Origin: Erysipelotrichaceae bacterium | Lineage (GTDB): Bacteria > Bacillota_I > Bacilli_A > Erysipelotrichales > Erysipelotrichaceae | DNA length: 27,436 nucleotides | Reading direction: 5' to 3' | Assembly (NCBI GenBank): GCA_017511325.1 | Contig: JAFWKS010000249.1 | Coordinates: 1 to 27,436 of the forward strand | Shown here: positions 1 through 25,946 of the stretch, one piece after another | How positions within the stretch are numbered: position 1 is the first letter of the stretch | Layout of the letters: each line of letters starts with the position of its first letter | Made by a program: the position numbers and the translations under genes | The notes under the pieces: model-generated | The model's database searches: none | Told to the model about the DNA's origin: nothing | The model's input: the letters and a program-made list of their open reading frames with translations, nothing else

Positions 1-1328
1 ACGAGAAGAATACTTACCTGAAGGTGTTCTTAAGGCAATATTGCCTTGAAAACAACAGTTCGATAAACACTCAGAAATGGACGCTCATAAGAGCCATGGA
101 CAACACTTACTACTACCTGGCTATGAGGATGGGGAAATATATCATCGGCGCAGTCAGCGACGCAAGACTCTATCAGGTCGATTTTCCTTATGAAGAGTTC
201 GAATACAAGACGATCAGCACTTATCTTCTTGATGAAGATGATCTGTTTTTCATAAATGGCAATGATGATCTTTATAAAGACATCGACAGGACAAAAAACG
301 AAGCATATTTTGTCGGCAAACATGTGATAGTTCCATCTTGGCAGCAAAACGCCAAGGCTAAAACGGTGTTCATCAATCAGACCGAAAGCATCTTCAATAC
401 CTTCAGGACGGCCTCATATTTTATGATCGCCGACAGCGCGATCTGTGTCGGGCTGGTCTTCATCATGTACTATAACATCCGCAAAAGGGTCAACAGACCG
501 ATCAGAGCTCTGGTCAAGGCCAACAAGAATCTTTCCGACGGCAATTTCGACTATAAGCTCGATACGGGCAGTGCGGGTTCTGATGAGTTTGAAGAGCTCT
601 ATAGAAGCTATAACGAGATGTCGGAAAAGATCGAGCATCTGACGATCGAACAGTATGATGCGGAGATAAAAAGACAGCAGAATCAGCTGAAGATGCTTAG
701 AGCGCAGGTCAAGCCGCATACCTTCCTCAACGCGATCAACACCATCAACAACATGACCTATACCGGTAAAGCTGAAGACATCAGAAAATATATTTCCGCC
801 TTTGCCTCGTTTACCAGATACATGATGTACAAAGCCAAAGACTGGACGACGGTCGAAGATGAGGTCAAGAATATCGAAAGCTATACCCGGATGCAGCAGA
901 TCCGTTTTCCGGAAAGTATCGAAGTCATATATGATATCGATCAGGAGATCTACTCAGAACAGATACCTTATCTGATCCTGTTCTCACTGGTCGAGAATTC
1001 CTTCAAGCATGCCATGACCCTGACCGATAAAGCCTATATCACGATCAAGGGCGAGTACTATGAGGAAGAAAACTTCAAGGGCTTCAGGCTGATCGAAGAA
1101 GACAATGGACCGGGCTTCTCCAAGGAAGCTTTAGAAAAGATCGAGACTGCCGAAGCGGATGACCCATTCACCAAGGAACACCTTGGTCTTACCAATGTGC
1201 GTTACTCTTTGAACCTTATATATAAAAGAGATGATCTTCTGCGCATTTCCAACAGGGAAGAGGGCGGAGCTCATATCGAATTACTGATCCCTGACCAGGA
1301 GGTGGACGATGAAACTTTTAGTATGTGA
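1..1328 (+). CDS. YesM-like sensor histidine kinase, 5' end outside window
   Basis: Membrane sensor kinase that should phosphorylate the response regulator encoded next to it. The frame is open to the left edge, and only one membrane segment is visible (about residues 131-150, counted from the GTG at 24), so the first membrane segment and part of the sensor domain lie upstream. A HAMP-like linker follows (about 151-205). The His_kinase box reads QVKPHTFLNAINTI with the phospho-acceptor His at 232; YesM proteins usually have the form QINPHFLYN, so this is a variant H-box. The ATPase part has an N-box (LVENSFKH, Asn325), a G1 box (EDNGPGF, about 359-365) and a G2-like HLGLTNVR (about 386-393). 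The gene overlaps the regulator gene by 20 bases, implying translational coupling. The family is certain; the ligand is not visible. Confidence 0.93.
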   Translation, partial: EKNTYLKVFLRQYCLENNSSINTQKWTLIRAMDNTYYYLAMRMGKYIIGAVSDARLYQVDFPYEEFEYKTISTYLLDEDDLFFINGNDDLYKDIDRTKNEAYFVGKHVIVPSWQQNAKAKTVFINQTESIFNTFRTASYFMIADSAICVGLVFIMYYNIRKRVNRPIRALVKANKNLSDGNFDYKLDTGSAGSDEFEELYRSYNEMSEKIEHLTIEQYDAEIKRQQNQLKMLRAQVKPHTFLNAINTINNMTYTGKAEDIRKYISAFASFTRYMMYKAKDWTTVEDEVKNIESYTRMQQIRFPESIEVIYDIDQEIYSEQIPYLILFSLVENSFKHAMTLTDKAYITIKGEYYEEENFKGFRLIEEDNGPGFSKEALEKIETAEADDPFTKEHLGLTNVRYSLNLIYKRDDLLRISNREEGGAHIELLIPDQEVDDETFSM

Positions 1329-2889
1329 TGATGATATTTCAACGATCGATGTAATACAGAGCCAGCTCGACTGCAAGATGCTGGGGATCTCCACGATCCT
1401 AAGAGCCTATAACGGCAAGATGGCGATGGAGATCATCGACAAGGAAGAACCGGAGCTCATACTGTGCGATATCGATATGCCTATCGCCAACGGTATGGAT
1501 GTCATGGAATATGCCTATGGCAAAAACAAGGACATAGAATTTTCGTTCTTGACCTGTTATGAGAAATTTGAATATGCGCAAAGAGCGATCCAGTATGGCG
1601 TGACCAGTTATCTGACCAAACCTTTTGATCTGGAAGAAGTCAAGATCTGCATCCAGCGCATGATCGCCAATGTGAAGAAAAAGAAGATGAGCAATCCGCC
1701 GGTAATACAGAGCCAGTATGATTCGCTCATGTCTTCGGTCTTAAGGCAGGCCAGTGATGGTGTCCTCGGGACCAACAAAGAGATTGTGGAAGCAGGATTA
1801 AGGATCAATGGCATCGATTTCCACGCTGACAGCAAGTGGCGCATCGTCTTTACCTGCTGCGATATGACCGACGCGATCAGAAAGACCTGGAACAAGGACC
1901 TTCTGATATTTACCTCAGCCAGGCTTCATGATGAAGCGATCCTCGGCTATATCGGTTCAGCTTATACCGTCGTCAATTCTGATGATCGATTCCTATGGAA
2001 CTTCTGTTTCGTGAAGGGGACGCTTAGCAACGAAGAACTTGAAAGCCGATGCAGGAAACTGATCGACTTCTATGAGAACTACATGTCGATGTCACCGGTC
2101 GCTTTGATCTCCGATCCTTTTGCGTTCTATGAAGCCAGCGATGTCGTCTGTGAACTCTATGAACAGATGAGGAAGATCAGATACTTTTCCGGAAAGATCT
2201 TCTTTGAGAATGAAGAGATCAATTATGAGACACCAAAGAACGTCATGCTTAATGAGAACCAGATCCTGTGGTATCTCAAAAAGAAGGACGAAGCAGGATA
2301 TCAGGAATATATCAATTCAATCATCGATAATTCCGATGGAACTTATGAAAAGCTCGATCAGATAAGGAAAGAACTGATCAACATCTTCGTCACACATTTC
2401 AGGGACAACGGCATCTCTTCCAACCAGATCTTCATGAATCCGGAGATCATGGCTTTGGATGAGAAGGCTGTGAATTCAAACAATGCGATGAAGGAATATG
2501 CGGACGCCTTGTTCAGTATCCAGCGAAGCAAACTTCAGGATGTCATCGATTCCGAAGATATCATCGGCAAAGCCAGAAAATACATCGAGGAGAATTTCAG
2601 AGAAAATATCGACCGCAACGATGTGGCAGCTGTCACTTTCGTCACGCCGAACTATCTGTCCAAACTCTTCAAAAACAAGATGAATATGAATCTGCGTGAA
2701 TATATCAATCAGCTCAGGATCGAAGAAGCCAAGCGACTTCTGATCTCGACTTCAATGTCGATCTCTGAGATCGCCTCATATGTCGGCTATTACAATATCT
2801 CCTACTTCTCTACCGTCTTCCATAAACTGGTGGGAGTGAGCCCTTTTGACTGGCGCAATGAGAAAGGCGTAGAAGATGACGCTGCTTGA
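1309..2889 (+). CDS. YesN-like response regulator, REC plus AraC-type DNA-binding domain
   Basis: Transcription activator partner of the upstream kinase, probably controlling the importer operon that follows. The receiver domain (residues 1-120) has the acidic cluster Asp7-Asp9, phospho-acceptor Asp54 in LILCDIDMP, Thr82 and Lys104 in YLTKPF. A long middle region (about 130-410) without a domain I recognise leads to two helix-turn-helix units at about 415-520, including the typical SISEIASYVGYYNISYFS segment and the GVSPFDWR ending. Length 526 residues is normal for the YesN type. The start is fixed by AGGAGGTG at 1297-1304, four bases before the ATG, inside the end of the kinase gene. Its own last 14 bases overlap the next gene. 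Confidence 0.95.
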   Translation: MKLLVCDDDISTIDVIQSQLDCKMLGISTILRAYNGKMAMEIIDKEEPELILCDIDMPIANGMDVMEYAYGKNKDIEFSFLTCYEKFEYAQRAIQYGVTSYLTKPFDLEEVKICIQRMIANVKKKKMSNPPVIQSQYDSLMSSVLRQASDGVLGTNKEIVEAGLRINGIDFHADSKWRIVFTCCDMTDAIRKTWNKDLLIFTSARLHDEAILGYIGSAYTVVNSDDRFLWNFCFVKGTLSNEELESRCRKLIDFYENYMSMSPVALISDPFAFYEASDVVCELYEQMRKIRYFSGKIFFENEEINYETPKNVMLNENQILWYLKKKDEAGYQEYINSIIDNSDGTYEKLDQIRKELINIFVTHFRDNGISSNQIFMNPEIMALDEKAVNSNNAMKEYADALFSIQRSKLQDVIDSEDIIGKARKYIEENFRENIDRNDVAAVTFVTPNYLSKLFKNKMNMNLREYINQLRIEEAKRLLISTSMSISEIASYVGYYNISYFSTVFHKLVGVSPFDWRNEKGVEDDAA

Positions 2890-3553
2890 AAGGATAAACA
2901 AAGACAAGAAACAGCTGGCTGAACTTCCTGATCTGAAAAGCAGGTTCACCTTCATCTGGGATTACTATAAGATAGCGATCATCGCCATCTTGAGCATCCT
3001 GGCACTCTTTTTGATCCTGCTTATCAGCAACATCGGCCGCAAGGACGCTTCCATGTATGTGGTCCTGCTTAATAATGATTCGACACTGGTGGAATGCGAC
3101 AGCACGATCTTTGATGAAGAACTGAAGAAGACTTCGCTTGATCTGAAAGGCAAGAGCGTCGATGTCAACGACAAGCTTTCGGTCGGTAGAAAGGGAAGCG
3201 AAGCAGAGGACATCGAGACGATGCAGATACTGACAGCTCTTTTTACGATCAGCGACCTTGATCTGTATGTGGCTGACAAAGAGTATTTTGACTATTTCCT
3301 GGAAGACGGAGGATATGCCGACCTTTCTTTACTGATCGATCAGAAGCTGCTGGACAAATATAAAGATGACCTTTATTACCGGGATGATCCTAGTGGTCAA
3401 AGGATCTTGTGCGGCATCGTGCTGCACAAAGATTCCATTATCCACAAGGCCGGCTACTACCATGATGATGTGATCATGGGAGTGGTATCCAACGCCAATA
3501 ATTTTGATGTTGCCATAGAATTTATCAGACAGATGCTGAGTGATAGAAATTGA
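2876..3553 (+). CDS. single-pass membrane protein of unknown function, two-component operon
   Basis: 225 residues. A cytoplasmic N-terminus of about 30 residues carries the phrase FIWDYYKIAIIA, followed by one hydrophobic segment (about 31-52) and an extracytoplasmic domain of about 170 residues with no catalytic motif I can name. The part reading DLDLYVADKEYFDYFLEDGGYADLS resembles the way solute-binding-like domains in Bacillota membrane proteins read, but this is an impression, not a domain match. The gene overlaps the response regulator gene by 14 bases, so it is co-translated with the sensor system. It sits where yesO, the binding protein, lies in the Bacillus yesMNOPQ order. It could be an accessory sensor, a permease-associated factor or an unrelated anchor protein. 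Confidence 0.8.
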   Translation: MTLLERINKDKKQLAELPDLKSRFTFIWDYYKIAIIAILSILALFLILLISNIGRKDASMYVVLLNNDSTLVECDSTIFDEELKKTSLDLKGKSVDVNDKLSVGRKGSEAEDIETMQILTALFTISDLDLYVADKEYFDYFLEDGGYADLSLLIDQKLLDKYKDDLYYRDDPSGQRILCGIVLHKDSIIHKAGYYHDDVIMGVVSNANNFDVAIEFIRQMLSDRN

Positions 3554-3577
3554 TAAACGCTGTGTACTTTTTTTAAT
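3550..3577 (+). promoter_or_regulatory. possible promoter of the importer operon
   Basis: TTGATA at 3550-3555, overlapping the stop codon of the preceding gene, and TTTAAT at 3572-3577 with a 16-base spacer. The 88-base gap before the first permease has two T-rich runs but no hairpin I could pair, so the preceding genes may read through. The match is weak. Confidence 0.25.
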
Positions 3578-3641
3578 GTTAGGCTTTTTTATTATGTTTA
3601 AGATGAAATTATGGATGATTATATAGTAAAGGAGTTTAGCT

Positions 3642-4607
3642 ATGTCAAATGAAAATACTAAACGATCTGAATTTGATGACGTCCTGAAAGAGCAGAAGAA
3701 GCTGCAGAGAAAGGAAGCGTTCAAGAATGACTTTCCTTTATATCTGATGATGCTTCCGGGTATGCTTTACCTCATCGCCAACAACTATCTGCCGATGTTT
3801 GGTATCCTTCTGGCTTTCAAGAGGATCAACTATACAGTTGGTATCTTAAAGAGCCCGTGGGTAAGATTTGCGAACTTTGAGTATCTGTTCAAAACTAAGG
3901 ATGCTTTCATCATGATCAGAAATACACTCGCATATAATGCGGTGTGGATCGTTTTGGATCTGTTTTTAGCTGTGTTCATCGCTCTGTGCATGAATGAGAT
4001 AGCTCAAAGGAAGATCGCCAAGATCATTCAGCCGATCATCTGTTTCCCTTCGATGGTCTCGGCTGTTATCCTGTCCTTCCTGGTCTATGCTTTCTTAAGC
4101 CACAGCTACGGATATCTCAATGCCACCATCTTCAAGGATAATCCGATCGCCTGGTACAACATGCCGCAATACTGGCCGTTTATTCTGACGATCGTACATA
4201 TCTGGCAATCCGCCGGACAAAGCTCAGTCATCTATATGGCCAGCATCGGTGGTATCGACAAGAGCCTGTATGAATCCGCAAGGATAGATGGTGCTACCAA
4301 GCTTGAACAGATCAAATATATAACTTTGCCGTTGCTTAAACCGATGATCACGATGATGCTATTGCTGTCAATTGGCAGAATCTTCAACTCTGACTTCGGT
4401 CTGTTCTATCAGGTACCGTTAGGCAACGGCATGCTCTACAGCACGACGCAGACGATCGATACTTTCGTTTACAGAGCCCTGATGATTTCCAACAACGTCG
4501 GTCAGTCTTCAGCTGCCAGCGTTTTCCAGGCCGTTATCGGCTTTATACTGGTACTGATCTCTAACCTGCTGGTAAGAAAGATCAACCCGGAGAACTCACT
4601 GTTCTAG
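3642..4607 (+). CDS. carbohydrate ABC importer permease, LplB/YesP type
   Basis: First of two membrane subunits of a sugar importer of the CUT1 type. About six hydrophobic segments lie between residue 28 and the end. The ATPase-contact EAA loop reads YESARIDGATKLEQIKYITL, followed by PLLKPM, close to the family consensus EAA-DGA-ITLP. Length 321 residues is usual. A good AAAGGAG at 3628-3634 sets the ATG start. Nine bases separate it from the second permease. The substrate cannot be read from the permease; LplB and YesP relatives carry oligosaccharides, often of complex glycans. The ATPase encoded later in the same operon is the natural partner. Confidence 0.93.
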   Translation: MSNENTKRSEFDDVLKEQKKLQRKEAFKNDFPLYLMMLPGMLYLIANNYLPMFGILLAFKRINYTVGILKSPWVRFANFEYLFKTKDAFIMIRNTLAYNAVWIVLDLFLAVFIALCMNEIAQRKIAKIIQPIICFPSMVSAVILSFLVYAFLSHSYGYLNATIFKDNPIAWYNMPQYWPFILTIVHIWQSAGQSSVIYMASIGGIDKSLYESARIDGATKLEQIKYITLPLLKPMITMMLLLSIGRIFNSDFGLFYQVPLGNGMLYSTTQTIDTFVYRALMISNNVGQSSAASVFQAVIGFILVLISNLLVRKINPENSLF

Positions 4608-4616
4608 GAGGAAGAT

Positions 4617-5531
4617 ATGGCTAACAAGAAGAATAAAATCACTTTAATGAGAGGTGAAAGAGAGTTCCACTATATCGCATTGATCATCATGGTCCTGATG
4701 ATGCTGTTCTGCATCGTTCCGCTGATCCTGATGCTGACGGTATCTTTGTCATCTGAAACTTCTCTGATCCATGGTTATCGTTTCATACCGGATGAGTGGT
4801 CACTTGATGCCTATTCATTCATGTGGGCAAAAAGAGCTACGATCTTCCGTGCCTATGGTCTGACGATCGTCGTCACTGTCGTCGGAACGATCGCCAGCCT
4901 GATTATGACTTCGATGTTTGCTTATCCTCTTTCAAGAAAGGATTTCAAACCGCGTAACGTCTTCGCATTCATCCTGTTCTTTACGATGCTGTTCAATGGC
5001 GGCATGACCGCTTCCTATATCGTCTGGACAAGACTGTTCCACATCAAGGATACGATCTGGGCTTATCTTTTGCCTGGTGCTTTGATGAACGGCATGAACG
5101 TCCTGTTGGTCAGAAACTACTTCAATGCGAATATCCCGTATTCGATCATTGAAGCAGCCAGAATGGACGGCGCCAAGGACTGGACGATCTATTCCAAGAT
5201 CATGGTCCCGCTCTCTAAGCCGATCATGACGACTATCGGTCTGTTCTCAGCTTTAGGTTACTGGAACAACTGGACAGCCGGTATCTATTACATAAACAAT
5301 CCTAAACTCTATACTATCCAGGTCTATCTGAAGAAACTGATGGATTCCATCCAGTTCCTTAAGACGACAGACCTTTCAAACGAAGCAACACTGCTGGCTT
5401 CAAGAAACCTGCCGACTGAATCGGCACGTATGGCAGTCGCTATCATTGCTTTGATACCTGTATTGGCGGTCTACCCATTCATTCAGAAGGAACTGATCAA
5501 GGGTATGGTCGTTGGCGGCGTCAAAGGTTAA
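4617..5531 (+). CDS. carbohydrate ABC importer permease, LplC/YesQ type
   Basis: Second membrane subunit, pairing with the permease just upstream. It has about six membrane segments and an EAA loop IIEAARMDGAKDWTIYSKI followed by MVPLSKP. Length 304 residues is normal for this family. AGGAGG at 4606-4611 overlaps the stop codon of the first permease, which points to coupled translation and equal amounts. In LplB/LplC systems a large lipid-anchored binding protein normally accompanies the pair; none is found before or after it here. Confidence 0.93.
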   Translation: MANKKNKITLMRGEREFHYIALIIMVLMMLFCIVPLILMLTVSLSSETSLIHGYRFIPDEWSLDAYSFMWAKRATIFRAYGLTIVVTVVGTIASLIMTSMFAYPLSRKDFKPRNVFAFILFFTMLFNGGMTASYIVWTRLFHIKDTIWAYLLPGALMNGMNVLLVRNYFNANIPYSIIEAARMDGAKDWTIYSKIMVPLSKPIMTTIGLFSALGYWNNWTAGIYYINNPKLYTIQVYLKKLMDSIQFLKTTDLSNEATLLASRNLPTESARMAVAIIALIPVLAVYPFIQKELIKGMVVGGVKG

Positions 5532-5544
5532 TAAGGAGCAAAAC

Positions 5545-7044
5545 ATGAATAATCGTAAACCATTTGAAACAGCTGCACCCGAACAAGTCGGTGTAAGCAG
5601 TTCTTTAATACTGGAATATATCGAGAATCTGGAGAAGTCACAGACTGAGATGCACGGTCTCATGATCATGCGCCATGGCAAGCTGATCACTCAAGGCTGG
5701 TGGGCACCATACGGACCAAATCTTCGTCACGGTCTGCAGTCTCATACCAAGACCTATGCAGCAACAGCTGTCGGTATCGCCTATACTGAAGGCCTTGTAA
5801 AACTCGACGAAAGGATCATTGATATCTTCCCTGATGAAGCACCTGAAGATCCAAGCGAGAATCTTAAACTCTTGACTGTCAGAGATGTACTGTGCATGGG
5901 CTGCGGCATGGATGAGATGCCTAGACCTTCAAAAGACTGGATCAGAGATTTCCTTCATACACCAGTCAATCATAAGCCCGGCACGACTTATATGTACAAC
6001 TCGACCGGTTCGACACTTCTTGGAGCGATCGTGCGCAAGAAGACCGGTTTAGGACTCCATGATTATCTGACACCAAGGCTCTTCAACAAGATCGGTATCG
6101 ATCCTGATAATCTGCGCTGGATGTGCATGCCTGATGGCATGGAAGTAGGCGGCGGTGGTCTATATGCCACGACTGAAGACAACTTCAGACTTATGAAACT
6201 CTACGCTGATGGCGGCGTCTGGGAAGGTGAGAGGATCCTGGCTGAAGATTACGTCAAGCTGGCTACGACCAACCAGAACGATTCAGCTACCGAATCGATA
6301 AACAACCCTGAAGCTTCAGACAACTTCCTGGGCTACGGTTTCCAGATCTGGATGTGCAAGCCGAATCGTGCTTACCGTGCTGATGGTGCCATGGGCCAGT
6401 TTACGATCATCCTGCCTGATCTGGATATGGAGATCGCGATCACGGAAACAGCTGTCGGAGCACACTGGGCTCAGTCAACATTGAATATCACCTGGGACTT
6501 TGTAGAGAAAATCAAAGATGATCAGGCTCTTCCTGAAGACAAGGAAGCATTAGATAGACTTAACAGAAAGCTCAGAAGACTCAATATCGGCAATCCTGAA
6601 TGCCAGCCGTTCTCACCGACTGTTGAAAAGATAAACGGCAGGAAGTATAAAGTTACCGGTGGCGATCTGACACCATTCGGCGCCAACTTCATGACCGGTC
6701 AGAAAGCTGACGGCATCGATACCTTCTCTTTGAATTTTGACAGCTATGGACTGGTATGGGATTTCATTACAAGATCCGGCAGAAGCGAAAAGATCAGATT
6801 CTCTACCAGTGGCACCCGTTTCAGCAATCTGCTGGGCAAGAAAGAAGATCTGACTCAGCTCTATCTGGGCGATGCTCACTGGAAAGATGACGATACGCTT
6901 GTCATGCACGGCCGCTGGGTCGAGACCTGCATTGAAGATACCTATACCATGAAGTTTGATGGCGACGAATTGACTATCGAGCCTGACAACAATTCAGCGT
7001 TCAAGTTCTTCAAACCGGAACCGATCGTGATTCAAAAGTTATAG
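5545..7044 (+). CDS. cytoplasmic serine hydrolase, class C beta-lactamase-like (S12 fold)
   Basis: Penicillin-binding-protein-like serine hydrolase of 499 residues; members act as esterases, peptidases or lactamases. The nucleophile motif SHTK is at 66-69, the YNS motif at 151-153, and a DGAMGQ segment followed by LPDLD corresponds to the third conserved region. A C-terminal domain of about 130 residues follows the hydrolase fold. There is no signal peptide or membrane segment, so it acts inside the cell. I chose ATG 5545 because AAGGAG at 5533-5538 sits six bases before it; a TTG 33 bases further upstream lies in the end of the permease gene and has no ribosome site. Its place in an importer operon suggests removal of an acyl group from an imported compound rather than drug resistance; this is inference. 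Confidence 0.87.
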   Translation: MNNRKPFETAAPEQVGVSSSLILEYIENLEKSQTEMHGLMIMRHGKLITQGWWAPYGPNLRHGLQSHTKTYAATAVGIAYTEGLVKLDERIIDIFPDEAPEDPSENLKLLTVRDVLCMGCGMDEMPRPSKDWIRDFLHTPVNHKPGTTYMYNSTGSTLLGAIVRKKTGLGLHDYLTPRLFNKIGIDPDNLRWMCMPDGMEVGGGGLYATTEDNFRLMKLYADGGVWEGERILAEDYVKLATTNQNDSATESINNPEASDNFLGYGFQIWMCKPNRAYRADGAMGQFTIILPDLDMEIAITETAVGAHWAQSTLNITWDFVEKIKDDQALPEDKEALDRLNRKLRRLNIGNPECQPFSPTVEKINGRKYKVTGGDLTPFGANFMTGQKADGIDTFSLNFDSYGLVWDFITRSGRSEKIRFSTSGTRFSNLLGKKEDLTQLYLGDAHWKDDDTLVMHGRWVETCIEDTYTMKFDGDELTIEPDNNSAFKFFKPEPIVIQKL

Positions 7045-10563: not shown

Positions 10564-12300
10564 ATGTTTGAAGTATTGATACCAAGGATCGGTGAATTCA
10601 AGAAAGATACGATCAAAGCCCCGCTGTATATGATGGGGGAAGTGCTTTTGGAAGTGATCATTCCGACCGTCATGGCGGCTTTGATCGATAAGATGTATAC
10701 CGAAGATATGCTTGTAGTAATAAGATATGGAGCAATCCTGATCGTGCTGGCCATATTGTCTTTGATCTGCGGATCAAGAAGTGCCAAGGCGGCTGCGACT
10801 GCATCGACCGGTTTTGCGAAGAACCTGCGCCGGGACCTGTTCTATAAAGTCCAGGACTTTTCATTTGGTGATATCGACAAGTTCTCTTCTTCGTCACTCG
10901 TCACCCGTTTGACCAACGATGTATCACATCTGCAGATGGCTTTCCAGATGCTGATAAGAATGGCCGTCAGAGCACCGCTAATGGTCATCTTCTCCGTGAT
11001 CATGGCTGTCAGGATCAATGCCAGGATGGCGATGATCTTCTTTGCCTTGATCCCGGTCTTGATCATCGGTCTGATCCTGATCTTTAAAGTCTCGCATCCG
11101 ATCTTCAGAAGGATCTTCAAGAAATATGATGCGTTGAACAATTCAGTTCAGGAAAATGTTGCCGGAATAAGAGTTGTAAAGTCTTTTGTCAGGGAGGACT
11201 ATGAGATAAACAAATTCCATGAAGCTTCTGAAGATGTTCGAAGCAACTTCGTCAAGGCTGAAAGGATCATTGCCCTTAACTCGCCGCTGATGTCTACCTG
11301 CATGTATACTTCGATGCTGCTGATAAGCTTCCTTGGATCAAGAGTCATCATCAGTTCCAGAGCCACTCAGCTTACGACCGGGCAGCTCTCTTCTTTGACG
11401 AGCTATGGTGTACAGATATTGACCAGCCTGATGATGCTTTCGATGGTCTTCATGCAGATAATCTTTGCGACAGAAGCTGTAAACCGTATCGTTGAAGTAT
11501 TGAATTATGACAGTACCCTTGCATCACCGGAAAACGGGATCAAGGAAGTTAAGGATGGCAGTATCGTTTTTGATAATGTGACCTTCAGATATGGCGGCAA
11601 CAACAAGAACGCAGCGCTTTCTGACGTGAACCTCAATATAAGATCCGGTGAAACCGTAGGTATAATCGGTGGGACCGGATCTTCAAAGACAACACTGATC
11701 CAGCTCATCCCGCGTCTTTATGATGTGAGCGAGGGAAGAGTCCTGGTAGGCGGCGAAGATGTCAGAGATTATGACCTGGTTTCCTTAAGAGATGAAGTGG
11801 CAGTCGTCTTGCAGAAGAACATCCTGTTTACAGGAACGATCAAGGATAACCTCAGATGGGGCAACAAAGAAGCCACAGATGAAGAGATCGTAAGAGTCTG
11901 CAAGCTGGCTCAGGCCGATGATTTCATTGAACAGATGCCTGATAAATATGACACAATGCTTTCACAAGGTGGCACGAACGTATCCGGCGGACAGAAACAG
12001 AGACTGTGTATCGCCAGAGCTTTGCTTAAGAAACCAAAGATCCTCATCCTTGATGATTCGACCAGTGCCGTCGACACCAAGACTGATGCTTTGATCAGAA
12101 AAGCTTTTGACAGCGAGATACCTGACACGACCAAGATCATAATTGCCCAAAGAGTCGCTTCAGTTGAAAATGCCGACAAGATCCTGGTCATGGATGGCGG
12201 AAAGATCGTTGAGCAGGGCAGCCACGAAGAACTTATGAAACACAATGGGATCTACAAGGAGATCTATGATTCCCAGACAAAAATGAAGGAGGATGAATAA
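10564..12300 (+). CDS. ABC exporter half with degenerate ATP site (BmrC/TM287-like)
   Basis: Half-transporter of 578 residues: six membrane helices (about 20-310), then a nucleotide-binding domain. Walker A reads GGTGSSKT (369-376), with Ser in place of the usual Gly before Lys. The signature is VSGGQ (473-477). Walker B ends LDDST with Asp498 instead of the catalytic Glu, and the switch residue is Gln529 (AQR) instead of His. These replacements are the mark of the degenerate-site subunit of heterodimeric exporters such as BmrCD and TM287/288, so it should work only with the next gene product. Likely role is export of drugs or lipophilic compounds under MarR control. Its start directly follows the regulator's stop, with GAGGTGA as ribosome site. 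Confidence 0.93.
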   Translation: MFEVLIPRIGEFKKDTIKAPLYMMGEVLLEVIIPTVMAALIDKMYTEDMLVVIRYGAILIVLAILSLICGSRSAKAAATASTGFAKNLRRDLFYKVQDFSFGDIDKFSSSSLVTRLTNDVSHLQMAFQMLIRMAVRAPLMVIFSVIMAVRINARMAMIFFALIPVLIIGLILIFKVSHPIFRRIFKKYDALNNSVQENVAGIRVVKSFVREDYEINKFHEASEDVRSNFVKAERIIALNSPLMSTCMYTSMLLISFLGSRVIISSRATQLTTGQLSSLTSYGVQILTSLMMLSMVFMQIIFATEAVNRIVEVLNYDSTLASPENGIKEVKDGSIVFDNVTFRYGGNNKNAALSDVNLNIRSGETVGIIGGTGSSKTTLIQLIPRLYDVSEGRVLVGGEDVRDYDLVSLRDEVAVVLQKNILFTGTIKDNLRWGNKEATDEEIVRVCKLAQADDFIEQMPDKYDTMLSQGGTNVSGGQKQRLCIARALLKKPKILILDDSTSAVDTKTDALIRKAFDSEIPDTTKIIIAQRVASVENADKILVMDGGKIVEQGSHEELMKHNGIYKEIYDSQTKMKEDE

Positions 12301-21144: not shown

Positions 21145-21271
21145 ATCCTATTTCTTCTTCAAATCAGCACAAAAGCAGCGATAGATCAAAGAAAACCGCT
21201 GTAAAATTTATTTAAAAGGATGCGGCATCGATCCACAGACAATCAAGAATATTTAAGCAGGTGAAATGACA

Positions 21272-23425
21272 ATGAAAAACGAAAAAGAAGATACGGTAAC
21301 AAATAAGCAGAGAAAAAACACAGTGATGCAGCTGCAGGTCTCTCTGCCAAAGAAGATCATCATAACGATAGGCATCATGACTGCGCTGATCCTTTTTGTT
21401 TATCATTTCAATGTTCCTAATCCGAACATGATCCTGATCGCAGGGCTTGTTCTGTGTTCTGCATTATTCGGCTATGGCGGCGGAATCGTCGCAGCTTTGA
21501 TCATGTTTGGCTATACGCTGTTCTTTTTCTCCACAGACAACAGCTTTATAAACTTTACACCGCAGAATTTGCAGAAGGTCATCTTTTCAGTGATCGGGAT
21601 CGCTGCCGATATGCTTTTTGTCTGTTCTCTGAAAAAGGCCGAGATCCAGGAATTCAAAGAGGTCGATGAATTGACCGGCCAGCTGAATGTTCAGAAAGAA
21701 ACGCTTAGTTCTCTATTAGATCACATGCCTGCCCTGAGCTTTTACAAGGATGCGAAGTCCGGTAAGTATCTTGCCTGCAACTAGGCATTTGCTGAATACG
21801 CAAACAAAAAGACCCCGGCCGAAGTAGTTGGTCTTACGGATTATGAGATCTTCGATCCTTTGACGGCCAAACATTTTGACGATGATGACAAGAAAGCACT
21901 TTCGATGGAAGAGCCTTATACCTTTTTTGAAGATGTCCATGATGCGGTGGGAAATCAGAAACAGTTCCAGTCGACAAAACTGAAGTTTGTCGATGAGACC
22001 GGTCGTTTGTGCATCCTGGGCATGTGCATGGATGTCACAGAGACCATCAGCATCAGGAAAGAAAATGAACAGACCAGAGCTGCTTATCAGGAAGCGCTGA
22101 GTACAAGAGATGTCTATGAGAATGTCATCAATGCTTTGTCTGAAGATTATTTCGATATGTATTATGTGGACCTTGAGACAGATGAATACATTGAGTATGG
22201 TTCCAGGACCGAAAAAGGGCAATTCATGAACGGATTACGCGGAAGAGATTTCTTCAATGAGACAAAGAAAAACGCCCTGAACCTTGTCTAAGAAAAAGAT
22301 CAGCCGCAGTTTATTGAACAAATAGATAAGGAAAAACTGCTTGAAGAGATCGAAAAACGCGGATCCTGCAACTTTACTTATCGTCTTCTGATCGAAGGCG
22401 AGCCGGTATATGTCAACATGAGAGTCAAAAAGATCGAAAACCACATCGTTATCGGTGTCAGCAATATAGATCTGCAGATAAAAGAGAGAATGGCGGCAGC
22501 ACGTGATGCGGAAGAGAAAAAATCCTATCGACGTATCAATGCCTTGAACGGAAATCTCATCGTGCTTTACTTCGTGGATCCTGAAAACGGACAGTTTACA
22601 CAATACAGTGCTTCCAAAGAATTTGAAGATCTCGGCATCTCCAAGCAGGGAGCTGATTTCTTCGGCACCACTTATGAGAACAGTCTTAAAACGATCCATC
22701 CGGAAGATCAGGCTCTTTTCCATTCACAGGTAACCAAAGAGAATATCCTGGCGACGATCGAACGCGACGGAATATTCGCACTGGACTATCGTCTGATGAT
22801 CGGAGAACTTCCGACCTATGTAAGGCTGAAAGCGGCCAAGGTCGAAGAAGACGGCAAGACCGTGCTGATCATTGGCCTGCTGGACGAGGATGCGCAGATA
22901 CGGCAGGAGCAGGAATATGTCAAAAATCTCTCAGCAGCCAGAAAAATGGCGACTATTGATTCTTTGACAGGTGTCAAAAACAAGCACGCTTTCGTGCAAT
23001 GGGAAGAGAAGATAAACGAAGCGATCAGAAACGGCACGCAGGGACCTTTTGCGGTCGTGGTCTGTGATATAAACAATCTGAAAGCTGTCAATGATCTTTA
23101 TGGACATAAAGAAGGAGATGAATGCATCAGGAATGCCAGCGCCAAGATCTGCAGGGTCTTCGATCACAGCCCGGTATTCAGGATCGGCGGAGACGAGTTC
23201 GTCGTCATTCTGACGGACAGTGATTATTCAAAGCGGGCAGAACTCATGGAGGAGATCAACGAACTTCCAACAGATAAATCAAAGATCAGGATCGGCGAAA
23301 CTATTGCGGCCGGTATGGTCGAGTATGATAAAGACCTTCATTTTTCACTTCTAAGTGTATTTGATGAAGCTGACCGTGCCATGTATGAGCGTAAACGGGC
23401 TCTAAAAGATCTGTTCGCATCATAA
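21272..23425 (+). pseudogene. membrane PAS-GGDEF sensor diguanylate cyclase gene with two in-frame stops
   Basis: One reading frame of 717 codons broken only by TAG at 21782 (codon 171) and TAA at 22289 (codon 340), with no frameshift. The N-terminus has about four membrane helices (about 25-120) resembling the DUF4118-like module, then a short coiled coil. Three PAS-like domains follow (about 148-260, 283-410, 420-548) and a GGDEF domain (about 555-715). That domain retains DSLTGVKNKHAF, FAVVVCDINNLKAVND and the full GGDEF motif at codons 639-643, so the catalytic part looks intact. ATG 21272 is preceded by AGGTGA at 21259-21264. The first stop lies in PAS1 where NKAF-like text is usual; the second falls where the third PAS reads TIHPEDQ. 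Either a recently disabled gene, a strain variant, or stop readthrough. Confidence 0.85.
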
Positions 23426-23481: not shown

Positions 23482-23504
23482 AAAAGACGGGTCACCCGTC
23501 TTTT
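23482..23504. terminator. bidirectional terminator between convergent genes
   Basis: Arms AAAAGACGGG (23482-23491) and CCCGTCTTTT (23495-23504), 10 perfect base pairs with a TCA loop. T-rich tails on both strands let it serve the GGDEF gene from one side and the three-gene minus-strand operon from the other. Confidence 0.85.
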
Positions 23505-23519
23505 CAGTTTTCTATTTAT

Positions 23520-24032
23520 TTATTCAGATTTTTCAGCTTCATTGTATCTGATGGTATAGAAAGTGTTGTTTTCTCCCATAGAGATATGAACGATGCCTTT
23601 GCTGGTATAGAAACGATACCATATCACTGTTCCGCCGTTTGCCTCAGCATAAGGTTCTTCACCAAAAGAACAGGCCTTATTGAAGTCGCGTTCAAGAAAA
23701 GAAAGACACTCATCAAAGGAAAGATCCTTCAGGTCTACATAGAGGATGACTTCTTGGAAGATCCTGCGTATATCATCTTTAGGATCAAAGAAGGCAGTTC
23801 CCTCTGCAAAAGAGCCATATATTTTGCCTTTGACAGCGACACTTAGATGATCGATGTACTTTTCATCAATACCGAGATCCTTGGCACTCTTGCCTATCCA
23901 GCCAAAAGTATCAAGCAGGTCTTCGACTTGATATTCTTGTTTTTCAATGATCTCTACATCGAGATCGCTGTCTGCTTTATTACAGGAAGTCATAATCATC
24001 ATTATCAGGATAAGAAGGATAGACCTTCTCAT
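23520..24032 (-). CDS. putative lipoprotein of unknown function
   Basis: 170 residues. A short signal sequence, MRRSILLILIMMIMTSCNKA, ends with a lipobox-like MTSC and Cys16 as the anchor. The mature part is a mixed alpha/beta domain with many acidic and aromatic residues and no motif I recognise (for example LSVAVKGKIYGSFAEGTAFF and TVIWYRFYTSKGIVHISMG). The start codon is two bases downstream of the stop of the preceding lipoprotein gene, so it is the last gene of a three-gene envelope operon. The ribosome site is weak, suggesting coupled translation. Confidence 0.8.
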   Translation of the reverse strand: MRRSILLILIMMIMTSCNKADSDLDVEIIEKQEYQVEDLLDTFGWIGKSAKDLGIDEKYIDHLSVAVKGKIYGSFAEGTAFFDPKDDIRRIFQEVILYVDLKDLSFDECLSFLERDFNKACSFGEEPYAEANGGTVIWYRFYTSKGIVHISMGENNTFYTIRYNEAEKSE

Positions 24033-24034
24033 CC

Positions 24035-25120
24035 CTATTCTTTCCAGAGCTTGAAGCGGTCACCGGCTCTTGACATGCACAGATCAGTCTTGAGCTCAAG
24101 TGTCTCGCCATCAACGGATTCGAAAATGATTTCTTTGACAGTATCGCAGCCGATTTCACCGTCTTTGCCGCAGTTGAAGCCCATCATCGAACTGCCATCA
24201 GTGACTTTGCATGCCCAGCCGTTCTGTTCAGGAGAGCAGTAACCGGTATATTTGCCCATGCCGGCGTAGACGTTCTCGTAGAACAGGAAAGAGAAGTCAG
24301 TAGCGATTGTGATAGTAGGCAGATAATCATCGTTGAGATCCGGGATCGATTCATGGACAAAAGTCTGAGTCTTGAAAGCAAAGCCATCATCCGGTTTTTC
24401 ATAACCGGCCGGGATCTTTCCGTCGGTGGTGAAGATATCACCTTTCTTAGAGCCGTCAAGATCATCGTTGAGGATCAAAGAATTCTCATCATTGATCAGG
24501 AAGACGAAGTTGTAGACCTTGTTGCCGCTGGCATCATTGAACGGATCGAAGTTGGAGAACATGTAGGCGTTTCCTTCCTTGCCCCAAAGACCGTTTACTT
24601 CGGTAATGCCGTTAGAACCTTTTTCGATCAGCGCAAATGACTTGTCATCATGGATCTCGATATAAGACTGATCGGACATAGGCTGCATGGCATTGTAGTA
24701 GATGACGTAATCAAAGTCTTCGATGCCATATGGCAGTATTTCCGTATTTGGTTTTTCCGTTGAAAAGACATCGGATGCATTGGCACCGGTCAGGCTGGTA
24801 TGAAGAATCAGATTGTTTTCATCTTTGATCTCAAACTTGAATTCGTTAGAATCAGCTTGCAGAGTCACAACGCCATCCTTAAGTGCCCAGGTGCCGTTAT
24901 ACTCGTTCATGCCTCCGACATAGTAGTCAGTCAGAACGAAGGATTCATCCTTTCCCAGCCAGAGCCTTGAGCGCTCGGTATAGACAAAGGAATCGGCTGT
25001 GTCGTAGAAAGTCTTGCCGGCAATATTTGCCGTTTCTTCCTTTTTGCCGCCTGTGCATCCGCTAAGAAGCATCAAAGCACAGAAGGTAGCCAGAATAATT
25101 TTTTTCATATCGTTCATCAT
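24035..25120 (-). CDS. lipoprotein with three repeated beta domains
   Basis: 361 residues. The signal sequence reads MKKIILATFCALMLLSGC, with lipobox LSGC. The mature part appears to be three copies of a domain of about 100 residues, each with a pattern of an opening F, a D-x-SF strand (KDESFVL, DDKSFAL, TDFSFLF), a GxY/VxGxW-like centre (MNEYNGTW, ITEVNGLW, MGKYTGYC) and a closing L-LxxxLxxxxxGDxF segment (LILHTSL, LILNDDL, LELKTDL followed by DVF, DIF, DRF). A lipocalin-like or META-like barrel is possible. The start is ambiguous among three ATGs (25120, 25117, 25108): GAGAGG directly abuts the first, so one of the later two may be used. Function unknown. Confidence 0.82.
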   Translation of the reverse strand: MMNDMKKIILATFCALMLLSGCTGGKKEETANIAGKTFYDTADSFVYTERSRLWLGKDESFVLTDYYVGGMNEYNGTWALKDGVVTLQADSNEFKFEIKDENNLILHTSLTGANASDVFSTEKPNTEILPYGIEDFDYVIYYNAMQPMSDQSYIEIHDDKSFALIEKGSNGITEVNGLWGKEGNAYMFSNFDPFNDASGNKVYNFVFLINDENSLILNDDLDGSKKGDIFTTDGKIPAGYEKPDDGFAFKTQTFVHESIPDLNDDYLPTITIATDFSFLFYENVYAGMGKYTGYCSPEQNGWACKVTDGSSMMGFNCGKDGEIGCDTVKEIIFESVDGETLELKTDLCMSRAGDRFKLWKE

Positions 25121-25127
25121 CCTCTCG

Positions 25128-25946
25128 TTAATATATGAGGCCCCATATCACTCCTGCGACAAACGTCAGACCGTTTGCGAGAGTTACATAGATAGGGATA
25201 AGCCATTTCGGTTTCTTTTTGATCGCGATCAGATAGACGATCAGCTCGATCAGCCAGACTATTCCTTCGCCAAGCGGGAACAGGATCAGCCATGCATAGC
25301 CGCCCATCGAGACATCCGCGATCGCCATGAACAGATTGAGCAGTATCTGAGTGATCAGGTTCGTTATTACGATCGTGATGATCTGCTTCTTTTCTCTATA
25401 GCCAAACAATAAGCCAAGCAGGACTTCAGCGATCGTGGTGATTATGGCCCTAAGCAGGAACTTGCCGATATTTGAAGCAGTCTGGTCGACTTCTTCGACC
25501 TTGAGCGAAGGACCGTATTCGACAATGAACCTTGCATCGAAAGCCTGTTTCTTGAAAGCATCAGAGACCTTGAGGCTTCCATCAGCGACATTGTATATGG
25601 CGATCTTGAATTCGCTTGGCGGATAGTAAGTCCAGGAGAATGTGTTGTTTTCTGAACATTCCTGCACATGGCTTAATGTCTTATATCCGTCCTTATCCTG
25701 ATAGTTCACGAAGGCTTCAGAGGCCGTTTTTGTTTCTTCATCGGCAACATTAATGTTTACTGCACTTATCCATTGATATGGGCCGAATTCCTCTTTTGTA
25801 AGCAGGGCAACATAATAATGATTCTTAGGTGCATTAACGATCTCAATGGTCAATGACGCCTTAGGACCCATGTCGGCTGATACAGGTGCAGCAAAAAATG
25901 ATAAAAAAGTGATACTGAGCAATAATAGTGTTAACAGTTTTTTCAT
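25128..25946 (-). CDS. membrane protein with exported domain, unknown function
   Basis: 272 residues. A signal peptide (about 1-24, ending PVSA) leads to an exported beta-rich domain (about 25-150) that opens with DMGPKASLTIEI. About four membrane helices follow between residues 155 and 272 (LLRAIITTIAEVLLGLLFG, then IVITNLITQILLNLFMAI, a helix around WLILFPLGEGIVWLIELIVY, and a final one). Proteins that begin DMGPKPS after their signal peptide followed by a small polytopic domain recur among Bacillota as far as I remember, but I know no function. It is first in the three-gene minus-strand operon; the next gene begins seven bases later. No clear ribosome site precedes the ATG. Confidence 0.8.
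   Translation of the reverse strand: MKKLLTLLLLSITFLSFFAAPVSADMGPKASLTIEIVNAPKNHYYVALLTKEEFGPYQWISAVNINVADEETKTASEAFVNYQDKDGYKTLSHVQECSENNTFSWTYYPPSEFKIAIYNVADGSLKVSDAFKKQAFDARFIVEYGPSLKVEEVDQTASNIGKFLLRAIITTIAEVLLGLLFGYREKKQIITIVITNLITQILLNLFMAIADVSMGGYAWLILFPLGEGIVWLIELIVYLIAIKKKPKWLIPIYVTLANGLTFVAGVIWGLIY

Follow-up and report, generated by a model that had tools for sequence, protein, structure and literature searches.

Reading frame and domain organization of the interrupted gene

The window analyzed here, a stretch of 27,436 nucleotides of DNA from an uncultured Erysipelotrichaceae bacterium, carries on its plus strand a frame of 717 codons (21272-23422) with exactly two internal stops and no frameshift, which closes with a TAA at 23423. 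Base composition would predict around 43 stops in this frame as against the two present, and the other two plus-strand frames of the same stretch contain 42 and 43. The split by a TAG at 21782 and a TAA at 22289, without any frameshift, had already been described in the initial annotation, and the coordinates and frame were verified. The features of the locus are the following:

21272..21784, plus strand: piece 1, membrane region and initial residues of PAS_4, terminated by TAG; an alternative in-frame ATG lies at 21266
21359..21604, plus strand: DUF4118-like membrane region, residues 30-111, Pfam match below cut-off
21716..22045, plus strand: PAS_4, residues 149-258, Pfam match above cut-off, with stop 1 inside
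21782..21784, plus strand: in-frame stop 1, TAG, codon 171
21785..22291, plus strand: piece 2, remaining part of PAS_4 plus the second PAS-like unit's first half, terminated by TAA
22094..22495, plus strand: second PAS-like unit, residues 275-408 (boundaries set for the comparison), homologous to the third unit, with stop 2 inside
22289..22291, plus strand: in-frame stop 2, TAA, codon 340
22292..23425, plus strand: piece 3, remainder of the second unit followed by the third PAS-like unit and the GGDEF domain; first ATG at 22418 (335 aa)
22505..22915, plus strand: third PAS-like unit, residues 412-548 (as cut), weak PAS_3 match
22949..23401, plus strand: GGDEF domain, residues 560-710, Pfam PF00990, GGDEF motif at 23186-23200
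23482..23504, plus strand: terminator-like hairpin 3' of the gene, consensus match only

A fair ribosome-binding site precedes the start at 21272, pairing with the anti-SD core at -7.4 kcal/mol. Elsewhere in the window, a serine-hydrolase gene (PF00144, 5512-7044) opens at a TTG at 5512 with -4.0 kcal/mol, and its in-frame ATG at 5545 has a better site (-6.3 kcal/mol).

The order of domains is a DUF4118-like membrane region, PAS_4, two tandem PAS-like units and GGDEF. Piece 3 matches PF00990 with 96.3 bits (cut-off 23.8) and holds the GG[D/E]EF motif, in agreement with the complete GGDEF domain that had been noted beyond the stops. The same annotation counted three PAS domains, which stands for PAS_4 on its Pfam match; the other two are likely, given their mutual homology (34% identity, hhalign E around 3e-27, as tandem homologues) and the weak PAS_3 match, below cut-off, at residues 447-508, so that the label of three PAS-like domains appears justified for PAS_4 and probable for the remaining pair. 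The hhalign comparison gave no similarity of the second or third unit to the first (PAS_4), and Pfam detects only the second of the tandem pair (22094-22915), below cut-off; the pair is possibly an undescribed PAS subfamily. PAS_4 is interrupted by stop 1 after 22 residues and the second PAS-like unit by stop 2 near its middle, so both lie within sensor domains and neither between domains.

Unbroken relatives and age of the break

The nearest genome record (L001) is a contig of an uncultured Erysipelotrichaceae MAG, isolate RUG14856; RUG presumably stands for rumen genomes. Its gene order matches that of the window between the Sel1-repeat gene (20065) and the window's last gene, of the methionine gamma-lyase family, and its syntenic copy of the cyclase gene has no internal stop and aligns without gaps to the read-through frame over all 717 codons. 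DNA identity to L001 is 89% in the cyclase gene, and positions 1-5101 of the window are 87% identical to the sister MAG (G001, around 1.7 Mb); on these values the window would come from a sister species or a distant strain relative to L001. Between approximately 5.1 and 19.6 kb the window has no long match in G001 (the best is 76% over some 650 bases), a stretch that is either an accessory region or a gap in the MAG.

A protein catalogue was searched with the read-through product, scoring being limited to the 7996 candidates that shared most words. It contains an unbroken protein of 717 aa, P0002, that is 99% identical to that product, and ten further unbroken proteins (P0003-P0012) with 91-92% identity and at least 95% query coverage, among the best 120 of 1579 matches; the L001 copy was taken to be the same as P0004 and hence as no additional witness. 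A residue is present at codon 171 in 12 of 12 aligned relatives that reach it and at codon 340 in 13 of 13, and the L001 copy likewise has no stop at either site. Catalogue entries are open frames by construction and prove that unbroken copies exist, not their share; likewise, a full-length query favours full-length proteins, and the matches do not measure how frequent breaks are. Close relatives of about 1016 aa (P0014, P0016, P0017 and similar proteins) have a PF00072 receiver domain, placed after the GGDEF domain in P0014 as judged by eye.

Matches at E 1e-50 or better were found in 10 of 36 genomes of the genus (15 places, none with internal stops), and matches at E 1e-150 in 6 of 272 genomes of the family (8 places, none with stops, with at most four candidates scored per genome). 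The gene itself is thus patchily distributed, most of these genus and family matches being more distant kin. No near match to the gene was found in plasmids. Two IMG/VR stretches fit a pattern and neither encodes a relative, while matches in 106 phage records were all below 60% identity, none covering 80% of the query among the 20 listed; with such low identity and coverage there is no sign of a phage-borne gene.

The dN/dS values against L001, a check suggested for the three pieces in the initial annotation, are low in all of them: 0.113 in piece 1, 0.064 in piece 2 and 0.068 in piece 3, with 0.051 in the GGDEF domain. Twelve other genes of the window gave values from 0 to 0.186, where the 0 corresponds to elongation factor P, compared over 53 of 185 codons, and for one permease the comparison covered 161 of 304. 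The highest value among the 13 genes compared with L001 (0.186) is that of a minus-strand gene at 23520-24032, one of three on that strand (23520-25946) without a Pfam family above cut-off. Low values in every piece point to purifying selection on all three until recently, and hence to a young break; youth of the break would also be the reason why the sequence past both stops is still protein-like. The argument that decay should bring frameshifts as well carries little weight when a young allele has taken two hits.

Over 717 codons, five missense changes plus the two stops separate the window from P0002. By comparison with the relatives, one or two of the missense changes are derived on the window side (residue 105 and perhaps 669). 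Under neutral single-base change, the probability of at least two nonsense mutations is 0.004-0.016 among the three or four derived changes and 0.028-0.049 among all seven differences from P0002. This excess could be due to chance, to favoured loss or to an artefact at one stop, stop 2 being unconfirmed.

Reality of the stops and alternative readings

Three contigs are recorded for P0122, a protein identical to the 170-aa product that stop 1 terminates; the longest measures 27436 bases, as does the window. We read the contig column as carriers of that exact sequence, which is our own interpretation, and the three may derive from shared reads or a single data set; so read, their number would exclude a one-contig slip at stop 1. 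For stop 2, a query with the 335-aa downstream piece gave no 100% match among the 120 listed of 4614, the best being 92%, in a catalogue clustered at 90%, where a missing exact match is no evidence against the stop. A base-call error, DNA damage or strain mixing at one or both stops, with stop 2 as the likeliest site, would leave the strain with one stop or none. The unusual mix of nonsense and missense changes on the window side and the lack of an independent sighting of stop 2 in the catalogue search are in line with such an artefact, which nevertheless seems quite unlikely: stop 1 occurs together with the window-only residue 105 on three contigs, and the chance of two stops in this one gene of 25 is P 0.007 (0.048 for any one gene). 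We infer that both stops are real in a living strain.

Other broken alleles may exist. P0223 (residues 36-129; one contig, longest 8381 bases) and P0242 (residues 351-717; four contigs, longest 8381 bases) are identical to the unbroken P0011 in 93 of 94 and 364 of 371 residues, respectively, and would represent one interrupted gene on one contig of a sister lineage. P0086, with 405 aa and 98% identity to the window product, ends after residue 405 (longest contig 82069 bases) and may be a further truncated allele or a contig end. It was excluded as evidence, as were the fragments P0123-P0131 from more distant kin, contig ends and frameshifts being indistinguishable from stops in these entries. 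Two 156-aa proteins (P0198, P0211; up to 21 contigs), 66-67% identical in the membrane region and with an unrelated tail, are either an independent short protein or a further cyclase subject to recurrent truncation.

Translation of both stops, by readthrough or suppression, would yield the full-length cyclase. The reading frame is intact past both, and in PMC11327459 a band as large as the full-length protein was obtained from two interrupted diguanylate cyclase genes, with readthrough named as one possibility. The intact frame is already accounted for by a young break, however, and each of the two stop types closes further genes in the window: the TAG codons at 4605, 7042, 14223, 15149 and 20062 and the TAA codons at 12298, 17739 and 26788, listed in the initial annotation as grounds for considering a code change unlikely, were all confirmed as gene ends, and that judgement is upheld. 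The stops are also missing from relatives, with none conserved at the same sites in L001 or in the 8 strong places of the 6 of 272 family genomes. In the sister MAG, an incomplete assembly from a genome other than that of the window, 23 tRNA matches were obtained and 21 loci scanned, two of which contain the remaining two tRNAs; none of the 22 tRNA genes typed reads stops, one locus being untyped. The same MAG has a match to prfA (RF1) above cut-off and a second, weaker release-factor match below it, presumably prfB. A code change was rejected on these grounds, namely the genes ending in TAG and TAA and a sister MAG with prfA and no suppressor among the tRNAs typed, and readthrough is barely credible. 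Scans of the window for tRNAs and Rfam families at gathering threshold returned nothing. Around the gene there are only short imperfect repeats, with no switchable repeat or invertible element, which gives no support to repeat-driven phase variation.

We therefore favour, with a probability of roughly 80%, the view that an accessory membrane PAS/PAS/PAS-GGDEF diguanylate cyclase is present here as a strain-polymorphic copy that was inactivated very recently. Among the options contemplated in the initial annotation, recent inactivation with strain variation is the one retained, in view of P0002, L001, P0122 and P0223/P0242, while readthrough, phase switching by repeats and a one-contig error at stop 1 are set aside. 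As in other nonsense pseudogenes, an unbroken syntenic orthologue is present in close kin (L001) and the stops cut PAS_4 and the second PAS-like unit; it looks like a known kind of event, an ordinary and very recent strain-level gene loss. To judge from its domains, the unbroken protein would sense a signal via its membrane and PAS domains and produce c-di-GMP. Two nonsense changes would have split the gene, leaving the membrane and middle pieces without any whole PAS domain and separating the GGDEF piece from the membrane part, with the consequent loss of sensor-coupled synthesis. Such a loss is plausible and probably affordable because the sister MAG has many GGDEF genes (21 matches, none interrupted within the matched stretch), and we infer that it is neutral or mildly favoured.

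The locus offers a clean case of a gene just after its loss, with near-identical broken and unbroken alleles in public data, and a caution that an intact frame with stops should not be taken as recoding. The remaining interest lies in the apparent recurrence of the break and in the possible continued production of the GGDEF piece.

Fate of the GGDEF piece and comparison with known systems

The third PAS-like unit and the GGDEF domain could still be made from an internal start (the first ATG being at 22418) and synthesize c-di-GMP without the membrane sensor. In accordance with this, the GGDEF domain is intact, motif included, dN/dS is low in piece 3, and the catalogue has proteins starting near residue 351, two of them from the sister lineage (P0242, P0243) and another with 76% identity (P0244); the Shigella flexneri genes dgcE, dgcQ and dgcN are a precedent, according to PMC11327459. 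Nevertheless, among 18 in-frame start codons examined from the stops up to 22949, not one pairs with the anti-SD core better than -3.5 kcal/mol, compared with a background quartile of -3.3 and -7.4 for the gene's own start, which is mild evidence given that several accepted starts of the window, among them 7051, 7935 and 17898, are also weak. In addition, the first ATG lies 43 codons past stop 2, the low dN/dS mostly dates from before the break, and no rise of the reporter was seen with dgcM and pdeR in the Shigella report. We regard continued production of the piece as unlikely, and prefer recent inactivation.

Taking as candidates for a stand-alone PAS-GGDEF enzyme the catalogue pieces that start near residue 351 and piece 3 of the window, the interruption might be both repeated and adaptive: several Erysipelotrichaceae lineages would independently have shed the membrane region and the first PAS domain and kept the stand-alone enzyme, turning a regulated source of c-di-GMP into an unregulated one. 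This proposal is very doubtful.

Among known proteins, the closest are the unbroken membrane PAS-GGDEF proteins of Erysipelotrichaceae (P0002-P0012, L001 and the kin of about 1016 aa), which are orthologous, align without gaps in the case of L001 and share neighbours; the window copy differs in being interrupted twice. A literature search on diguanylate cyclases of Erysipelotrichaceae in the rumen found no paper. The other system for comparison is that of the S. flexneri diguanylate cyclase genes broken ahead of the GGDEF domain. As described in PMC11327459, dgcE, dgcQ and dgcN raised a c-di-GMP reporter in E. coli BL21, dgcM and pdeR caused no rise in that host, deletion of dgcE, and of dgcE together with dgcQ, lowered c-di-GMP, and bands of full-length size were obtained from two interrupted genes, readthrough being one possibility for the authors. 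That system belongs to another phylum and protein family, with one stop each for four genes versus two here, and three of the five interrupted genes tested there raised c-di-GMP; in the window gene the next Met comes 43 codons after stop 2. In common with dgcE, dgcN, dgcQ and dgcM, the window gene has a break ahead of an intact GGDEF domain, a close unbroken relative and other diguanylate cyclases in the genome, and just as the S. flexneri genes are unbroken in other species of the genus, unbroken kin exist here. If the GGDEF piece were active, the Shigella result on working diguanylate cyclase pseudogenes would be extended to gut Firmicutes.
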